A stretch of DNA of 64,000 nt from Acidobacteriota bacterium (GTDB taxonomy: Bacteria; Acidobacteriota; Blastocatellia; Pyrinomonadales; Pyrinomonadaceae). Both the position numbers and the translations under genes were made by a program. The notes below the pieces were generated by a model that was not told the origin of the DNA, ran no database searches, and saw only the letters and a list, made by a program, of their open reading frames with translations. This document shows, piece after piece, positions 20,172 to 30,410 of this stretch (position 1 is its first letter; the number at the start of each line of letters is the position of its first letter). The stretch spans positions 1 through 64,000 of the forward strand of contig JAOAPY010000023.1 in the NCBI GenBank assembly GCA_025463135.1, given 5' to 3'.

Positions 20172-23105
20172 CTAAAAGCTGAAGCGCACCGAGGCGTCAA
20201 TGCGGCGATTGCAAGCCCCGAGACAGGCGCCGCCTCCTCCGCCAAAGCCACCGAAGTTCCCACCACTTCCGGTTGAGATGCCAAAGAATGGCGAACTAAG
20301 ATTGCCAATCGGAGTGCCAAGGTTTGTGTGGTTTAGAATGTTTTGAAAATTGAGACCCACAGTCAGGTTGTAACGCCTGCTGGTTTCGCCGCCGCCGCCA
20401 AAACCTCCGCCGCCACCACCGCCTTCTCGACCTCCGCCGCCACCGCCGCCGCCGCCTCTTGGTCCGCCTCCGCCCATACCGGGAAAGCCCGCACCGCCGG
20501 CTCGGCCGCCACCGCCCGGCTGGGTATCAGCACCTTGAGCGCCGCGCCGATTCTGACGATTTGCCGCCGTGCTGGTTTCTTTCCCAAAGCCGAACGTCTT
20601 ACTGACGCGGAGATTCGTGCTTATAGATCCAGGACCGCTGCCAAAGTTTCGTGGAATAATTTGCTCACCTGCGGTCGGGTTGGGATCAAATGCGCCCCAG
20701 CGCGTCACGACCACTCCGGGCTTCGATAGATCAGTGGCGAATGCCGGACGATCACTAAATAATGAGTCACCGTTGAGATCTCTTCCCACCGTGATATTGA
20801 AGGGCTGTCCTGACGAGACGATAACAAACGGACTCAAGGTTACATTCCAGGGCATCCGGAAAGATCCGGTAAGCACAAAGCGATGTCTTAGATCGCGCGA
20901 AAACCTTCCATACTCACCAGTCAAATCGTAAGAATTTGCCGGAAAGCTACCGGCGCCATCCGTATCGCTGTGGGCCCTGGCGAAAACATAAAAAGCGTTG
21001 AAGTTTCCTCTGCGCCCGATAGGACCGCGCAAGGTGGCAATCAATTGATTCTGATTGAATCGGCCCGAGGACTCGTACTCAAAGATATTATCGATTGTGC
21101 CCAGCGGTCGCGCGCCTGTTCCAGGCAAGGGTGCATTGATCGCGCGCGATCGCAGCAAATGCTCGCTCCGGGCGCTGACAAAACTCACCGAGGCGACAAG
21201 GTTATACGGAAGTTGCCGCTCCACGCTCATCACGGCCTGCATGGTGTAGGGCGCCTGCAGGTCGTTTGCCAAACGATAAATCGACAAGGGCACGGTACCC
21301 GTACTTAGCGAGGCAATCGTCGGTACATTCGGAAAGAAATCCGGGTTGATAACGATGAACTGCTTTTGATTGGTGCCGTTCAGGCGACTCGCTGTCAGCG
21401 TCAGGCTCTCTCCAATGCGATCATAGAAAATGCCAAAGCCACCGCGCACGACGGTTTTGTATTTTGGTCCATTGCCCGGTGACCAGGCGAAGCCTATGCG
21501 CGGGGCGAAATTAAGATCGCTGCTGACGTTGGATTGGTTCTCGTAGCGCAGTCCAAAATTCAGTGTCAGGTTCTTGCGCATCTTCCAGTCGTCCTGAAGG
21601 TAGCCGCCAAAATCCAGTTGACTGACAGCAGCGGTGGGATTGCCGGCGCTGATGGTGAACTGGCTGGCGCCGCCACCCATTGCGCGAATTTGCGCGGGCG
21701 TAAGACCCTGTTCCAAGCCAAGCAAAGTGGTCCGGTAAGCTCCGATACTCGTAAACGTGAATGTCCCGCCAAAGTTCGACGGTGCGGTGTCGGTGATGCT
21801 GATGTGCCTTAACCGCAAGCCCGCCTTTAAGGCATGGTTTCCCTTGGTGAACGAGGTGTTGTTTTGCAACTCCCAACGATTCTGCACGTTGCTGGTGAGC
21901 CCAACCTGAGAGCCGCCACCGGTGAAAGCGTCCTGGACTCGTATGGTGGCAATCGTGTTGGTGCCATCTTGCCCGGAAATTTCGTGGGTGAATTGAAAAC
22001 GGGTTTCATTAACGATCTTCTTGTTAATAAGCGCGGTCTCTGTCAATTGCACCTGATGCTCAGTGTTTGAGGTCGAGAACTCTTGCGTAGGCAGAGAGAA
22101 CCCGCCGACGCCGCCGATGCGCTTCGTATGCTCGTAGGAATAACGAGCCACCAGGGTGTTGTTGGAGTTCAGTTGGTAATCAAACCTGGGACTGAACGAG
22201 GTGCGCCTGTTTGGGGTGGGCACGGTTTGATTGAAGCCCACAGGATTCAAGTTCGCATCCAAAATCGTCGCGACGATCAGAGCATCGTCGTTGATATCCC
22301 GCTTTTCAAAATCAACAAAGAAAGAGGATTTCTTCTTCGAGATGGGACCGCTGAGATTTCCTCCGAACTGTCGCTGAAGATAAGGCGGGCGATTGGGTGC
22401 AAACGGATTGCGAGAGTTCAAGGACTGGTTGTTGAAGTTAAAAGAGACCTGCCCACGAAACCGATCGGTTCCTGGCTTGGTAAGAATCTCGATGCGGCCC
22501 ATACCCAGCCGATCATATTCGGCGGAAAACGGATTGGAATTAATGCGAATCTCGCGAATCGACGCGAGCGGCGGCAATCGTCCGCCGGTGAAGCCATCGA
22601 TAAAAATCTGTCCGCCATTTGGACCAGCCGAGGGGCCGGCAAGCGCTTGCAGAGCGGCCGCGAGGTCATCGGGATCTTCCGGCAAAGCATCCAGGTCGGC
22701 GCCCTTCATGACAATCGCACCGGCGTTGTTCTCAGCATCGGTACTCAGTGCCCGGTTGTCACTTTCAATAGTCACCTTCTGCTCCTCAATAGTGACCTTG
22801 AGTGTGATGTTCAGTGGCTGGCCCCGTCCGGCGACGACCTCCACTTCGGTGTTTTCGTAGGGAGCAAAGCCAGAGGTCGCTACGCGCACGGTGTACTTGC
22901 CGGGGGCGAGGGCGTTCACTACATACAGGCCCTGATCGTTGGTGGTGACGGTCTTCTGCGTGCCGCGGGCGTCGATCACAATCACATTCGCGCCCACGAT
23001 GGCCCCGCCAAACTCGTCCAGAATTTGCCCGCGCAAAGAGCCGTTGGCCTGTTGTGCCAGCGCCGCCGAAGCACACAGCACAAAAATCAATAACAATCTT
23101 CCCAT
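20172..23105 (-). CDS. Oar-like TonB-dependent outer-membrane receptor
   Basis: 977 residues from ATG at 23105, with GAGGAG ten bases upstream and a signal peptide ending near AALAQ. The N-terminus has a carboxypeptidase-regulatory domain (GSLRGQILDEFGGAIVGANV, about 20-105). A TonB plug region follows (about 120-230, FIDGFTGGRLPPLASIREIRIN), then a large beta-barrel ending in Phe (RRIDASVRFSF). Such proteins are abundant in Acidobacteriota and import large or polymeric substrates. A striking Gly-rich insert of about 60 residues (about 840-900) is almost pure Gly/Arg/Ala and probably forms a flexible extracellular loop. Divergent from the CpxR-like regulator across an operator-rich gap; co-regulation is an inference. 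Confidence 0.9.
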   Translation of the reverse strand: MGRLLLIFVLCASAALAQQANGSLRGQILDEFGGAIVGANVIVIDARGTQKTVTTNDQGLYVVNALAPGKYTVRVATSGFAPYENTEVEVVAGRGQPLNITLKVTIEEQKVTIESDNRALSTDAENNAGAIVMKGADLDALPEDPDDLAAALQALAGPSAGPNGGQIFIDGFTGGRLPPLASIREIRINSNPFSAEYDRLGMGRIEILTKPGTDRFRGQVSFNFNNQSLNSRNPFAPNRPPYLQRQFGGNLSGPISKKKSSFFVDFEKRDINDDALIVATILDANLNPVGFNQTVPTPNRRTSFSPRFDYQLNSNNTLVARYSYEHTKRIGGVGGFSLPTQEFSTSNTEHQVQLTETALINKKIVNETRFQFTHEISGQDGTNTIATIRVQDAFTGGGSQVGLTSNVQNRWELQNNTSFTKGNHALKAGLRLRHISITDTAPSNFGGTFTFTSIGAYRTTLLGLEQGLTPAQIRAMGGGASQFTISAGNPTAAVSQLDFGGYLQDDWKMRKNLTLNFGLRYENQSNVSSDLNFAPRIGFAWSPGNGPKYKTVVRGGFGIFYDRIGESLTLTASRLNGTNQKQFIVINPDFFPNVPTIASLSTGTVPLSIYRLANDLQAPYTMQAVMSVERQLPYNLVASVSFVSARSEHLLRSRAINAPLPGTGARPLGTIDNIFEYESSGRFNQNQLIATLRGPIGRRGNFNAFYVFARAHSDTDGAGSFPANSYDLTGEYGRFSRDLRHRFVLTGSFRMPWNVTLSPFVIVSSGQPFNITVGRDLNGDSLFSDRPAFATDLSKPGVVVTRWGAFDPNPTAGEQIIPRNFGSGPGSISTNLRVSKTFGFGKETSTAANRQNRRGAQGADTQPGGGGRAGGAGFPGMGGGGPRGGGGGGGGGREGGGGGGGFGGGGETSRRYNLTVGLNFQNILNHTNLGTPIGNLSSPFFGISTGSGGNFGGFGGGGGACLGACNRRIDASVRFSF

Positions 23106-23222
23106 CCCGGAGCGTCTCCTCAAATTTCCTGGCCGTATAGGTGCTAAATACTTGAGTACGCCGCGAACACAGGTTGACCAAACGCGGCTCTAGCGTACGG
23201 CAGGATTGTAGGCGAATTGTGA

Positions 23223-23289
23223 GTAAATGTCTGTCAACTTAATGTAAAGTTTTGTCAGTACAGCGCGCAATTGCTTGACATTTCTTTAC
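23223..23289. promoter_or_regulatory. Three CpxR-like boxes GTAAA-N5-GTCAR
   Basis: Box 1 at 23223-23237 and box 2 at 23244-23258 are direct repeats starting exactly 21 bp apart. Box 3 at 23275-23289 is the same motif on the minus strand. E. coli CpxR recognises GTAAA-N5-GTAAA. The boxes lie in the 350-bp gap between the TonB-receptor gene and a CpxR-like regulator, so they are candidate autoregulatory operators. The TTGACA at 23275 could also serve as a -35 element. Confidence 0.6.
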
Positions 23290-23455
23290 AGTGACGACAG
23301 AGACAGTAAGTTAGAATGCAACCCGCGCAAGGTGTTTCGTAGCGATTTTGCACGGCTGAGTTCGCAGCTTCGTTCCGCAGCCGAGGCGGACAAGTCCGCT
23401 TCTAAACGGCCAGGGTCAGATATTTCAAAGTCCTTCAGAACTTCGATAGTTTTTT

Positions 23456-24151
23456 ATGGAACGAGTACTGGTCATTGACGACGACGTGGGCTTGTGTGAA
23501 CTGGTCGAGGAGTACCTCGGACCCGAAGGCTACGAAGTCGAAGCCGCGCACAATGGTGAACGCGGCATCAATCGCGCGCTCGCCGGCGATCACGCTTTGG
23601 TAATCCTCGACGTCATGCTTCCGGGAATGAATGGCTTTGATGTGTTGCGGCGCATTCGGTCAAAGTCACGGATACCGGTCCTGATGTTGACGGCCCGCGG
23701 TGATGACATCGATCGCATAGTGGGATTGGAAATCGGCGCGGATGACTATCTGCCAAAGCCCTTCAATCCGCGCGAACTGGTGGCCCGCATCAGGGCCATA
23801 CTTCGTCGCACACAGCCCGGTGAACATGCAAGCGACACGCCCGAGACGTTGTTGGTCGGCGACATCGAACTCGATACCGCCACCCGCACCGTGCGCCGGG
23901 CCGGAGAGAAGATCGAATTGACAGTGGTCGAATACGATCTACTGGAAAAGCTGCTGCGCGTGGCGGGACAAATCGCCAAGCGTGAAGAGCTGGTAAAAGA
24001 CGTGCTTGGCCGCGAGCTTTCGCCCTTCGATCGCAGCATCGATATGCATGTCAGCAACCTGCGCAAAAAACTGGGCCATCAACTAAACGGCTTTGAGCGC
24101 ATTAAGACCATTCGGGGAGTGGGCTATATCTACGCCGCTTCCGGCAAATAA
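23456..24151 (+). CDS. OmpR/CpxR-type response regulator
   Basis: 231 residues: receiver domain (1-118) with acidic pocket IDDD, phospho-acceptor Asp52 in VILDVMLPG, Thr in MLTARGDD and Lys in LPKPF, followed by a winged-helix OmpR-type DNA-binding domain (about 132-230, ending SNLRKKLGHQLNGFERIKTIRGVGYIY). It closely resembles CpxR. The gene is six bases from the cognate sensor kinase and clearly forms an operon with it. Regulation by itself through the GTAAA-N5-GTCAR boxes upstream is likely but inferred. No obvious ribosome-binding site precedes the ATG. Confidence 0.93.
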   Translation: MERVLVIDDDVGLCELVEEYLGPEGYEVEAAHNGERGINRALAGDHALVILDVMLPGMNGFDVLRRIRSKSRIPVLMLTARGDDIDRIVGLEIGADDYLPKPFNPRELVARIRAILRRTQPGEHASDTPETLLVGDIELDTATRTVRRAGEKIELTVVEYDLLEKLLRVAGQIAKREELVKDVLGRELSPFDRSIDMHVSNLRKKLGHQLNGFERIKTIRGVGYIYAASGK

Positions 24152-24157
24152 GATCCG

Positions 24158-25525
24158 ATGCGAATACGCAGCTTATTTCTCAAAATTTTCATCTGGTTCT
24201 GGTTGGGAATGATCGTCGCTAATGTGGCGCTGTTTCTTTCGGTGGCGGCGACCAGGCCCGAGCGATCAAACCGTCCCTGGCGCGATCTGAGCATGGTTGG
24301 ATCGAGCGCGCAGAAATCGGCTGAGACTTATGATCGAGAAGGACAGGCGGCGCTGGCGAATTATCTGGACCAGTTCGAAGAAAGCAATGGCATTTCTTCC
24401 ATCCTGTTCAACGATCAGGGTGCAGAGTTGGCGGGCCGAGTGGTCCCCAACGGTTGGCAAGAGCTGGCCGGCCGCGCCGCCAAAACGGGTATCACCCAAT
24501 TCAACGTTTCGACCACTGCGCTGGTCGTGGCCCAACAGGTCGCCACACCACAGAATCATCACTACGTGTTTGTCTCGCGCATAGCGCGCATGCCATTGAG
24601 CGTTAGCCTCCGGACCCAGGCGCTGCGGCTTTTGGCGGTGCTGCTCACCGGCGGTTTGTTTTGTTATGGCCTCGCCAGTTACTTAACCACACCGATTCGC
24701 AAGCTGCGGGGCACAACTCATGAATTCGCCGACGGTAATTTGGGCGCGCGCGCGGCGGGCAGACTGGTTAAGCGGCGCGACGAAATAGGCCAGTTGGGAA
24801 GTGATTTCAACACGATGGCCGAACGGTTGCAGTCAATGGTCGCCGCACAGCATCGGCTGCTGGGGGACATATCGCATGAGCTGCGTTCCCCGCTGGCTCG
24901 GATGAGCGTGGCCCTGGAGCTGGCCCGGAAGCGCGCCGAGTCTAACGCCAAGAGCGCGCTCGATCGCATTGAACATGAAGCCGAAACCCTCAACGAAATG
25001 ATTGGTCAGTTGCTGAAACTAACGCGTCTCGAGAGTGGCACCGACGGATTAAAGCGCACTGAGGTCGACCTCGCACAACTCGTGCGGGAAGTTGCCGACG
25101 ACGCGGACTTTGAGGCGCGCAGCCGTAATCGCTCGGTCCATGTTGTCAACTGCGATGAGTGCTCGACGCAAGGGACCGAGGAGTTGCTGCGCAGCGCGAT
25201 TGAAAATGTGGTGCGTAATGCGGTGCGTTACACCGCTGAAGGAACTGAGGTCGAAGTCACGCTGCGATTGAAGAATGGCAACGAGAACTCTGCCGTGATC
25301 AGCGTCCGCGATCACGGACAAGGGGTGCCGGAAGAAGCGATGGACAAAATCTTTCATCCCTTCTATCGCACGGAAGATGCTCGTGACCGCGAATCCGGCG
25401 GCAGTGGGCTGGGCCTGGCGATCGCCTCGCGAGCAGTCCGCCTGCATGGCGGCCGCGTCCAGGCGGTGAATGCGGCGACGGGTGGATTGGAAGTAACGAT
25501 CAGCCTGCCGGCAGAGAGGGCTTAG
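24158..25525 (+). CDS. CpxA-like sensor histidine kinase
   Basis: 455 residues. Transmembrane helices at about 8-30 and 155-175 frame a periplasmic sensor domain of about 120 residues. HAMP (about 175-230) leads into HisKA with phospho-acceptor His240 in GDISHELRSPLARM, then HATPase_c with N box (ENVVRNAVRYT), DHGQGVPEEAM, FHPFYR and GSGLGLAI. Start ATG at 24158, six bases after the regulator. The periplasmic location of the sensor and the CpxA-like layout suggest it monitors envelope stress; the nearby Spy/CpxP-like genes support this, by analogy only. A long heptamer hairpin follows the stop. Confidence 0.93.
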   Translation: MRIRSLFLKIFIWFWLGMIVANVALFLSVAATRPERSNRPWRDLSMVGSSAQKSAETYDREGQAALANYLDQFEESNGISSILFNDQGAELAGRVVPNGWQELAGRAAKTGITQFNVSTTALVVAQQVATPQNHHYVFVSRIARMPLSVSLRTQALRLLAVLLTGGLFCYGLASYLTTPIRKLRGTTHEFADGNLGARAAGRLVKRRDEIGQLGSDFNTMAERLQSMVAAQHRLLGDISHELRSPLARMSVALELARKRAESNAKSALDRIEHEAETLNEMIGQLLKLTRLESGTDGLKRTEVDLAQLVREVADDADFEARSRNRSVHVVNCDECSTQGTEELLRSAIENVVRNAVRYTAEGTEVEVTLRLKNGNENSAVISVRDHGQGVPEEAMDKIFHPFYRTEDARDRESGGSGLGLAIASRAVRLHGGRVQAVNAATGGLEVTISLPAERA

Positions 25526-27791: not shown

Positions 27792-29531
27792 TTAGTTCCT
27801 CCGGCCGCCGCCGCCGGGAGCGCCACCAGTTCGCGGTGCGCCGCCAAACCCTGGCGCTGAATTCGTATTGCTTTGGGTCTTGCTGGCGCTGGCTATTGTT
27901 TGGCCAGTGATCACCAATTCGCCCTCCTGCAAGTTGCCTTCTACAACTTCAGTCGAAACACCGTCAGTGAGTCCAACCTTTATGCGCCGGGCCTGCGGCT
28001 TACCGTCCTGGCCCAGCACCCACACCACGCGCGTCTGTCCTGCCAACACAGGTGCACTCGCCGGAGCAAAATTGCCGCCGCGCCCACTGCCCTGCTGGCC
28101 GTCTGCTGATCCTGTGGTGGTCGTCGCGCCGGCATTGGCGTTGGCGGCCGGCGACGCGGAATTCTGACTGCGGCCCTGTCCCGAACCGCCACTGCTTTGC
28201 CCCGCGATGCGCTGCCCACTTGAATCAACCGGCGTAAACCGCAGCGCGGAGTTTGGCACTTTGAGCACGTTGTTGCGTTCATCGATCGTGATCGTCAAAT
28301 TGGCCGTCATGCCGGGCTTCAGTTTTTGTTCCGGATTACTTACATCAATGACGACGTTATAGGTGACGACGTTTTGTACATTTTGCGGATTGAGCCGCAT
28401 CTGCTCGATCTTGCCGTCAAAGTCCTTTCCGGGAAATGCGTCCACCGAAAACTTCACCGACTTGGCCTGTTCGACCAGACCAATATCCGCCTGATCGATG
28501 TTGGCGATGACCTGCATCTGGGTCAGGTCTTTCGCGATTGTGAAAAGAGTTGGGGCAGAGAGACTGGCGGCCACCGTCTGGCCCACGTCCACATTCCGCG
28601 ACACCACGATACCGTCGATTGGCGAAGTAATAGTGGTATGGGCCAGGTTTACTTCGGAAAGTCGCAGCGCCGCTTCGGCCTGTTGCACCTGGGCCGCAGC
28701 CTGCTGCACCTGGGCTTGCGACTGCTGTACCTGCGCCTGCGTCTGTTGTATCTGTGCCTGCGATTGCGCCACGCCGGAACTTGCCGAGGACTGCGCGCTC
28801 AACATGGCCTGGCTAACCTGCGTCTGCGCTTGTTTGTATTTCGCTTCCGCGGCTTTGTAAGCGGTCTGAGCGACCTCGAGATCTCGACGCGCAATCACGC
28901 CGGCTTGAACGAGGGATTCCTGCTGGTGCAGATAACTGGCTGCGTCGTCGAGCTGTGCTTTCAAAACTGCCAGGTTGGCCTGAGCGCCGGAAACTCCTGC
29001 CTGATCATTCTGTGCCGTCGATCCGGCCGCCACCGCCTTGGCCTGCGCATCTGTTACGCCGGCACGCGACTGGGCCACACCTGCCTTTGCCTGCTGCAAA
29101 CTCGCCCGTGCCTGATCGAGATTGGCGCGCGCCTGATCGACTTGCGCCTTGGACACTGATGGATCAAGCTGCGCGATGACCTGGCCCGTCTTCACTACCG
29201 AGTTGAAATCGACTGTAAGCGCGGAGATTGTTCCCGAAGCCTGACTGCCGACCTGCACGGTCGTGACCGCCTGAAGAGTGCCGGTGGCTGTCACCGTGTT
29301 GCGAAGGTTTCCTCTTTCGACTTTCGCAGTCAGGTACTGTGCGGCGCTCGACTGGTTGCCCCAAAAATAAAAACCGGCCAGGGCCAGAATTACTACGGCG
29401 CCGCCGCCAATAATGGCCTGTTTCTTGTGGCTCAGAATTTTGGCCCACAATCCATTTATTGGAGTGACCCAATTTGTTTTTGATACGCCGACGCTTACCG
29501 GTAATCGTTCTTTAATTGTTTGACTCGACAT
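27792..29531 (-). CDS. MacA-like periplasmic efflux adaptor
   Basis: 579 residues from ATG at 29531, with AAGGTG six bases upstream; the frame reaches 29600 but that part lacks a start signal. An N-terminal anchor helix (about residues 38-58) is followed by a lipoyl half-motif (VQVGSQASGTISALTVDFN), a very long Ala/Gln-rich coiled coil (about 110-280, with near-heptad QxQAQVQQ units), the second lipoyl half and beta-barrel and membrane-proximal domains. A low-complexity Gly/Ser/Asn/Ala segment (about 415-480) and a Gly-rich tail (GGAPRTGGAPGGGGRRN) are unusual. It bridges the inner-membrane ABC unit to an outer-membrane channel not encoded here. Confidence 0.92.
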   Translation of the reverse strand: MSSQTIKERLPVSVGVSKTNWVTPINGLWAKILSHKKQAIIGGGAVVILALAGFYFWGNQSSAAQYLTAKVERGNLRNTVTATGTLQAVTTVQVGSQASGTISALTVDFNSVVKTGQVIAQLDPSVSKAQVDQARANLDQARASLQQAKAGVAQSRAGVTDAQAKAVAAGSTAQNDQAGVSGAQANLAVLKAQLDDAASYLHQQESLVQAGVIARRDLEVAQTAYKAAEAKYKQAQTQVSQAMLSAQSSASSGVAQSQAQIQQTQAQVQQSQAQVQQAAAQVQQAEAALRLSEVNLAHTTITSPIDGIVVSRNVDVGQTVAASLSAPTLFTIAKDLTQMQVIANIDQADIGLVEQAKSVKFSVDAFPGKDFDGKIEQMRLNPQNVQNVVTYNVVIDVSNPEQKLKPGMTANLTITIDERNNVLKVPNSALRFTPVDSSGQRIAGQSSGGSGQGRSQNSASPAANANAGATTTTGSADGQQGSGRGGNFAPASAPVLAGQTRVVWVLGQDGKPQARRIKVGLTDGVSTEVVEGNLQEGELVITGQTIASASKTQSNTNSAPGFGGAPRTGGAPGGGGRRN

Positions 29532-29873
29532 ATTCAGCACCTTGTTTGTTAATTGATTGCTCTGAAAGCTTCCAACTCGCCAATGAGTCAGACACCACAT
29601 GTAGGCTTTTGGTTACATCGGAGAGCACATAAAGTCTCTCCTTCGAATATCGTTCCAAAGGCGAGCCAGGGCCCTGATATCGTCAAGAAAGAACCTCAAT
29701 GTAATGTTTCGTGGTTTATTTGACCGCTACGAGGCCTTGAACGGCTGCGTCCGGTCACTACTGCTCACCCGGTTCTGTAAAGCCTGTAACCTATCCGCTC
29801 TATCCGGTGTCTTACAGTTCGGGAGGCTAATGAAGGCACCCCCAATCATATGTTCAGCAATTAGGAGTAAATA
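29532..29873. other. 342-bp divergent gap, adaptor versus Spy-like gene
   Basis: Contains the two ribosome-binding sites (near 29540 minus and AGGAG at 29863 plus) and a degenerate direct repeat GTAAA-N4-GTAAC at 29777-29790, which resembles a CpxR half-site pair but with four rather than five spacer bases. No other structure was seen. Confidence 0.4.
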
Positions 29874-30410
29874 ATGAAATTTAGAAACCTTGGAACAATT
29901 AAGACACTGACCATCGCCTCCCTGTCAGTGCTTGCATTGACGGTCTCAATCGCTCTGGCACAGAAGTCGGGAACAAGTCAGACCGGCGAACGTCATGGTC
30001 ACGGCGAAGGCTGGGGAAACCGCGGCGACAATGACGGCGAAATGCGCGGCATGCTCTTTCGCGGCCTGAACCTGTCTGATGATCAGAAAGCGAAGATGAA
30101 GCAAGTGAGCCAGAGCTTCCGTGAACGCACGCAGTCGCTGCATCAGGAACTTCAGGCCAAACGGCAGGAGTTGCGTCAGGTGAGCGAGGGCGGTACGTTC
30201 GACGAAGCATTGGCCACGCAAAAACTGCAGGAGTCAGCTGGCTTGCAGGCGAAACTAATGGGCGAACAGTTTAAGATGCGTCAGGAAATGTTGGCGGTCC
30301 TAACGCCGGAACAGAAGACGCAACTGGAACAGAAGCGGGCCGAGTTCAAAGCCAATGGGAATCAACGCGGTCATCACAAAGGCGAGCGCGATAAACCTGA
30401 GAATGAGTAA
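29874..30410 (+). CDS. Spy/CpxP-family periplasmic protein
   Basis: 178 residues with a signal peptide ending at SIALAQ. The LTxxQ motifs of the Spy/CpxP family are present twice: LNLSDDQKAKM (about 65-75) and LTPEQKTQL (about 142-150), embedded in a mostly helical, highly charged chain. A His/Gly-rich N-terminal segment (GERHGHGEGWGN) could bind metal. The family includes ATP-independent periplasmic chaperones and Cpx/metal-stress sensors. AGGAG lies six bases before the ATG. Perfect hairpins follow the stop. Divergent from the efflux operon and upstream of a sigma factor gene; a role in envelope stress is inferred. Confidence 0.87.
   Translation: MKFRNLGTIKTLTIASLSVLALTVSIALAQKSGTSQTGERHGHGEGWGNRGDNDGEMRGMLFRGLNLSDDQKAKMKQVSQSFRERTQSLHQELQAKRQELRQVSEGGTFDEALATQKLQESAGLQAKLMGEQFKMRQEMLAVLTPEQKTQLEQKRAEFKANGNQRGHHKGERDKPENE

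Follow-up and report, generated by a model that had tools for sequence, protein, structure and literature searches.

The Cpx response is known from alpha-, beta- and gamma-Proteobacteria (PMC12802237). The CpxR motif of E. coli is GTAAA-N5-6-GTAAA (PMC9600279), and in P. aeruginosa GTAAA-N-GTCAA is an accepted CpxR site, with predicted CpxR sites preceding siderophore receptor and efflux genes (PMC12802237). Regarding Acidobacteria, searches of open-licence papers gave incidental mentions of Cpx only, and no report of a Cpx system.

The window (the whole 64-kb stretch of acidobacterial DNA that was analysed) harbours a locus similar to the CpxRA-CpxP system found in E. coli and further Gammaproteobacteria, with which it shares a regulator of the CpxR clade, a CpxA-like kinase, the gene order cpxR-cpxA and the word GTAAA-N5-GTAAA. 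The divergent LTXXQ-family Spy/CpxP gene of the E. coli arrangement is also present in most acidobacterial relatives. The E. coli gap contains GTAAAACAACGTAAA, followed 27 bp on, towards cpxR, by TAATTT as the first TAnnnT-like hexamer, like in single-box acidobacterial loci. In many Gammaproteobacteria the box is located at about -62 to -111. Unlike in E. coli, the second half-site in Acidobacteriota is often GTCAA, and many relatives possess three boxes, the cpxR-proximal one being inverted. The window also differs in that a receptor gene is found instead of a divergent LTXXQ-family cpxP/spy, no cpxP is linked, and the genome contains a second cpxRA copy. The gene order of P. aeruginosa CpxR/CpxS/CpxP is different, and its regulon was demonstrated, whereas that of the acidobacterial system is putative.

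Regulator and sensor kinase

The gene cpxR (23456..24151, plus strand) encodes an OmpR-family response regulator of 231 aa with receiver and Trans_reg_C domains (Pfam). The top NCBIfam model was CpxR with 227.6 bits, which misses the equivalog cut-off of 341 bits, set on closer relatives of E. coli CpxR. By its sequence the regulator is thus classed as a CpxR-clade homologue and not as a certified equivalog. Among the E. coli regulators compared, CpxR was the top match (46% identity). In the maximum-likelihood tree, the window regulator and its acidobacterial orthologues form a clade that includes E. coli CpxR (support 98/97), and OmpR, BaeR, PhoB, RstA, CreB, ArcA, QseB, KdpE, PhoP and seven other OmpR-family regulators of the source genome are outside of it. 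A larger tree places 47 acidobacterial and 21 proteobacterial CpxR rows together (SH-aLRT 94), with 44 acidobacterial rows forming one group and 19 proteobacterial rows another; finer placement is unsure, as the branches of many E. coli rows are long. The recognition helix, DRSIDMHVSNLRKKL, is nearly identical to that of E. coli CpxR, DRAIDMHISNLRRKL. The CpxR-like nature of the regulator, assigned in the preliminary description, is therefore upheld by trees, profile match and recognition helix.

Downstream, cpxA (24158..25525, plus strand) encodes a CpxA-like sensor histidine kinase of 455 aa. It matches the CpxA models over its full length with 346 and 275 bits, compared to 171 bits for the next family (NCBIfam), and both alignments include the periplasmic sensor region (NF045900 residues 3-451, NF007007 residues 3-453). 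These scores are under the curated CpxA cut-offs (486, 800). The top full-length profile match, that of 346 bits over residues 3-451, is to the CpxRA system of Legionella. In three Legionella loci, neither GTAAA-N4-6-GTMA within 350 bp upstream of cpxR nor a long divergent Spy-type ORF was detected. Among the E. coli kinases compared, CpxA was the top match, with 42% identity over the kinase core. A PDB search with the kinase alignment was set aside, since the alignment includes E. coli CpxA and matches to CpxA are partly by construction. For the phylum, 297 genomes were sampled, and 48 of them have the kinase at E <= 1e-70; the acidobacterial Cpx system is thus widespread in it, not universal.

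Intergenic boxes and their conservation

Three GTAAA-N5-GTCAR boxes are located between the minus-strand TonB-type receptor gene and the plus-strand cpxR, in the number, arrangement and gene context given in the preliminary description. Box 1 (GTAAATGTCTGTCAA, 23223..23237, plus strand) is proximal to the divergent promoter, which would ancestrally be that of spy/cpxP; box 2 (GTAAAGTTTTGTCAG, 23244..23258, plus strand) is the best conserved direct box; and box 3 (GTAAAGAAATGTCAA, 23275..23289, minus strand) is inverted and proximal to the cpxR promoter. Boxes 1 and 2 are direct copies with a start-to-start distance of 21 bp, and across them run four half-sites in steps of 10, 11 and 10 bp. No other exact match exists in the 64-kb window, for which 0.16 were expected; all three boxes lie within 23223-23289, and at least three matches occurred in 0 of 100 shuffles. 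A genome-wide enrichment of the strict motif, for which that description had proposed a scan, could not be detected: the 6.48-Mb genome contains 17 matches, versus 19 for the reversed control. A scan with the acidobacterial consensus at no more than two mismatches also gave no enrichment (16 versus 12 in the control). The surprise is therefore the clustering and not the word, as 67 bp of the window hold three of the 17 genome-wide matches. The unenriched strict pattern would be in agreement with a chance cluster without function, but three boxes within 67 bp versus 0.16 expected, together with independent conservation, make the probability of this practically negligible.

The E. coli consensus GTAAA-N5-GTMA, which had not been fitted to the present data, was found within 300 bp upstream of 15 out of 27 cpxR orthologues (22 matches versus 0.16 in shuffles). 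In a second, phylum-wide set of 20 orthologues, which took no part in noticing the pattern, it was present upstream of sixteen (19 matches versus 0.08). Both sets pooled yield 41 matches, with about 0.2 expected. The consensus was found neither upstream of the seven other OmpR-family regulators of the source genome nor upstream of the diverged cpxR paralogue. Box-anchored alignment of the upstream regions revealed conserved box positions and non-conserved flanking DNA. About one third of the orthologues possess no exact upstream box. The comparison of orthologous gaps, proposed earlier as a check, thus turned out in favour of the boxes, which are phylogenetically conserved and predicted to be CpxR-type operators. 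Half-sites at 10 or 11 bp are common to OmpR-family operators, and this spacing would equally fit sites of another member of the family (e.g. PhoB-like), with the proximity of cpxR being incidental. This is highly improbable, as the word is that of CpxR and tracks the orthologues of cpxR throughout the phylum, and the regulator has a recognition helix of the CpxR type.

The three-box layout recurs in relatives, e.g. in L004, L005, L015, L027 and L215. Where relatives have three boxes, box 1 mostly reads GTAAAGAGTyGGTCAA (N6), with a distance of 22 bp to box 2, compared to 21 bp in the window; box 2 is TGTAAAGTTTTGTMAA in most of these relatives, and box 3 is TTGACAyTTCTTTAC. An alternative layout among the relatives has one direct box. 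The locus L106 from an Acidobacteria gp1 MAG, whose regulator shares 69% identity with that of the window, possesses boxes 1 and 2 together with a Spy-like ORF in divergent orientation. In L003 (G033:C163), boxes 2 and 3 are about 290 bp apart, versus about 30 bp in its close relative L004, and the intervening DNA differs; the two boxes are therefore separable while each is kept.

Predicted cpxRA promoter and probable autoregulation

The predicted -10 of the cpxRA promoter is TAGAAT (23312..23317, plus strand), 22 bp after TTTAC, a spacing that relatives keep, and from it we infer a start site at about 23324. In most three-box loci, 22-23 bp separate the end of the inverted box from a -10 of TAGAAT/TACAAT type, and in single-box loci the distance from GTAAA to the -10 is 27-28 bp. 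L207 and L223 kept the box and not this spacing. On the cpxR strand, no consensus -35 was found at 16-18 bp from the -10. In L005, L015 and L028, box 1 is located 22-23 bp before TAATCT, TAAATT or TAAGAT on the divergent side, which suggests putative start sites there too. The pattern TTGAC-N5-TTTAC-N21-24-TANNNT had counts near the control in 37 relatives and was of use only to recover the cpxR promoters.

Autoregulation of cpxRA, as put forward in the preliminary description of a Cpx-like system, is the best reading of the boxes, given the CpxR-family regulator and the boxes conserved upstream of its orthologues. The direction is probably activation, since the distance from box to -10 is near-constant across strongly diverged DNA. 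Phosphorylated CpxR, formed upon a presumed envelope-stress input, would bind all three boxes. The inverted box 3, centred about 42 bp upstream of the putative start and without a good -35 beside it, would help RNA polymerase to the -10, and its occupancy would raise cpxRA transcription, i.e. class-II-like positive autoregulation. Negative autoregulation, in which box 3 represses cpxRA by promoter occlusion, appears unlikely. Box 3 does cover a TTGACA hexamer and adjoins the -35 region, and position alone does not fix the sign, but the cpxR strand offers no consensus -35 at the proper distance, and the activator-like spacing is kept despite divergence.

The cluster thus very probably serves an acidobacterial CpxRA two-component system as its autoregulatory operator. 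This follows from the CpxR clade, the full-length CpxA match, the recognition helix, the consensus upstream of orthologues, the conservation confined to the boxes and the near-constant spacing to the -10, as well as from the divergent Spy/CpxP genes, the boxes at unlinked spy genes and the acceptance of GTAAA-N-GTCAA in P. aeruginosa (PMC12802237). Counted against it are the missed NCBIfam cut-offs, the unenriched strict motif, the orthologues without exact box, the spacing in L207 and L223, and the window copy without divergent cpxP. With this operator, envelope-stress regulons may be predicted in a soil phylum that is large and genetically hard to study.

Divergent gene, second cpxRA copy and neighbouring module

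The divergent gene in the window (20172..23105, minus strand) encodes a TonB-type outer-membrane receptor (CarboxypepD_reg and OMP_b-brl_4) of 977 aa from a probable ATG at 23105, and occupies the place of spy/cpxP in relatives. A Spy/CpxP-like gene is divergent from cpxR in 18 out of 23 assessable orthologous loci (C37 paralogue included), and all of the ten such proteins scanned with Pfam passed LTXXQ, the family of E. coli CpxP. Where spy is unlinked to cpxRA, boxes can precede spy while cpxR has no box (L258 with L018; L260 with L025), therefore the CpxR-Spy link appears to be what is kept. L258 and L260 are the spy genes of G046 and G019, with Cpx-type boxes upstream and cpxRA not adjacent. 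Boxes 1 and 2 may accordingly represent the ancestral operator of a divergent promoter that serves the gene of a periplasmic Spy/CpxP chaperone in most relatives. A conserved CpxR operator with divergent Spy in Acidobacteriota suggests for a major envelope-stress switch, and for its DNA code, a greater age or mobility than has been described.

In the source genome the receptor has replaced spy/cpxP, with or without coming under the control of CpxR. A candidate receptor promoter, CAGACA-17-TACAAT (23205..23233, minus strand; consensus match, 0.2 expected by chance), overlaps box 1, therefore CpxR control of the receptor is possible and unproven. It is conceivable, albeit rather doubtful, that the boxes now mainly serve the receptor, with CpxR activating or occluding this promoter. 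In addition to the overlap, CpxR sites upstream of siderophore receptor genes in P. aeruginosa (PMC12802237) would be in agreement with such a role. However, box conservation tracks cpxR and spy. Eleven receptor orthologues were found (53-62% identity over the N-terminal part), none adjoined by cpxR; ten out of the eleven lack an upstream box and the other has a lone N6 match. The DNA upstream of these orthologues could not be aligned. The receptor orthologues were rejected as Cpx targets, having no conserved boxes. Among the loci compared, the receptor adjoins cpxRA in the source genome only, and the conserved divergent gene is spy/cpxP, so that the suggested control of an outer-membrane receptor did not find confirmation in relatives. 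The swap of cpxP for a receptor lends itself to a direct test of regulatory rewiring.

The genome also possesses a second cpxRA copy with a divergent Spy gene (L050, G000:C37:39682-42640), whose regulator and kinase are 69% and 54% identical to those of the window. Its boxes are diverged, with GCAAA-type half-sites, and its regulator helix has T for the M of the window copy (RSIDTH versus RSIDMH), a T also present in L027, L010 and L221. An array at C7:50904 (L065), TTAAC/TTCAC/TTCAC/TTTGC at 10-11 bp, resembles the operator of this paralogue and is located upstream of an outer-membrane beta-barrel gene (PF13505). Four CpxR-type half-sites (11, 10, 10 bp), then N22 and TAAACT, are found at C18:122372-122424 (L064), preceding a gene for a small secreted protein without Pfam match, and make a strong candidate for a further CpxR-type promoter; this array contains the sole genome match to TTTAC-N5-TTTAC-N21-24-TANNNT. 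The sequences hint that the two Cpx copies are insulated from each other. We tentatively propose, as a scenario with less than even chances, that the CpxR operator code and the link of CpxR to Spy are older than the Acidobacteriota/Proteobacteria split and that cpxRA was duplicated, one copy keeping spy with a GCAAA-type operator and the other losing spy and being rewired to an outer-membrane receptor. If true, paralogue insulation and target replacement would have occurred here in nature.

The MacAB and Spy/CpxP-like neighbours, initially taken as Cpx context, should not be counted as such. The genes Spy1-ECF-antisigma-Spy2 and the divergent macAB constitute a separate ECF-sigma module in the window, with its own predicted promoters and not beside cpxRA in relatives. 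Promoter-like elements TGTAAC-N16-GTGTCT face both ways in the region 29531-29874 between macA and Spy1-ECF-antisigma-Spy2, at 29785 (plus strand) and 29617 (minus strand), and the Spy1-side element is kept in five relatives (in one with TGTGAC). The idea that Spy1 is the displaced cpxP, with GTAAAGCCTGTAAC at 29777 as its Cpx box, was rejected, because only TGTAAC is conserved, which is the first hexamer of the ECF-type promoter common to orthologous spy-ECF loci. The start of macA is probably nearer 29531 than 29600, as the promoter element overlaps the longer ORF.
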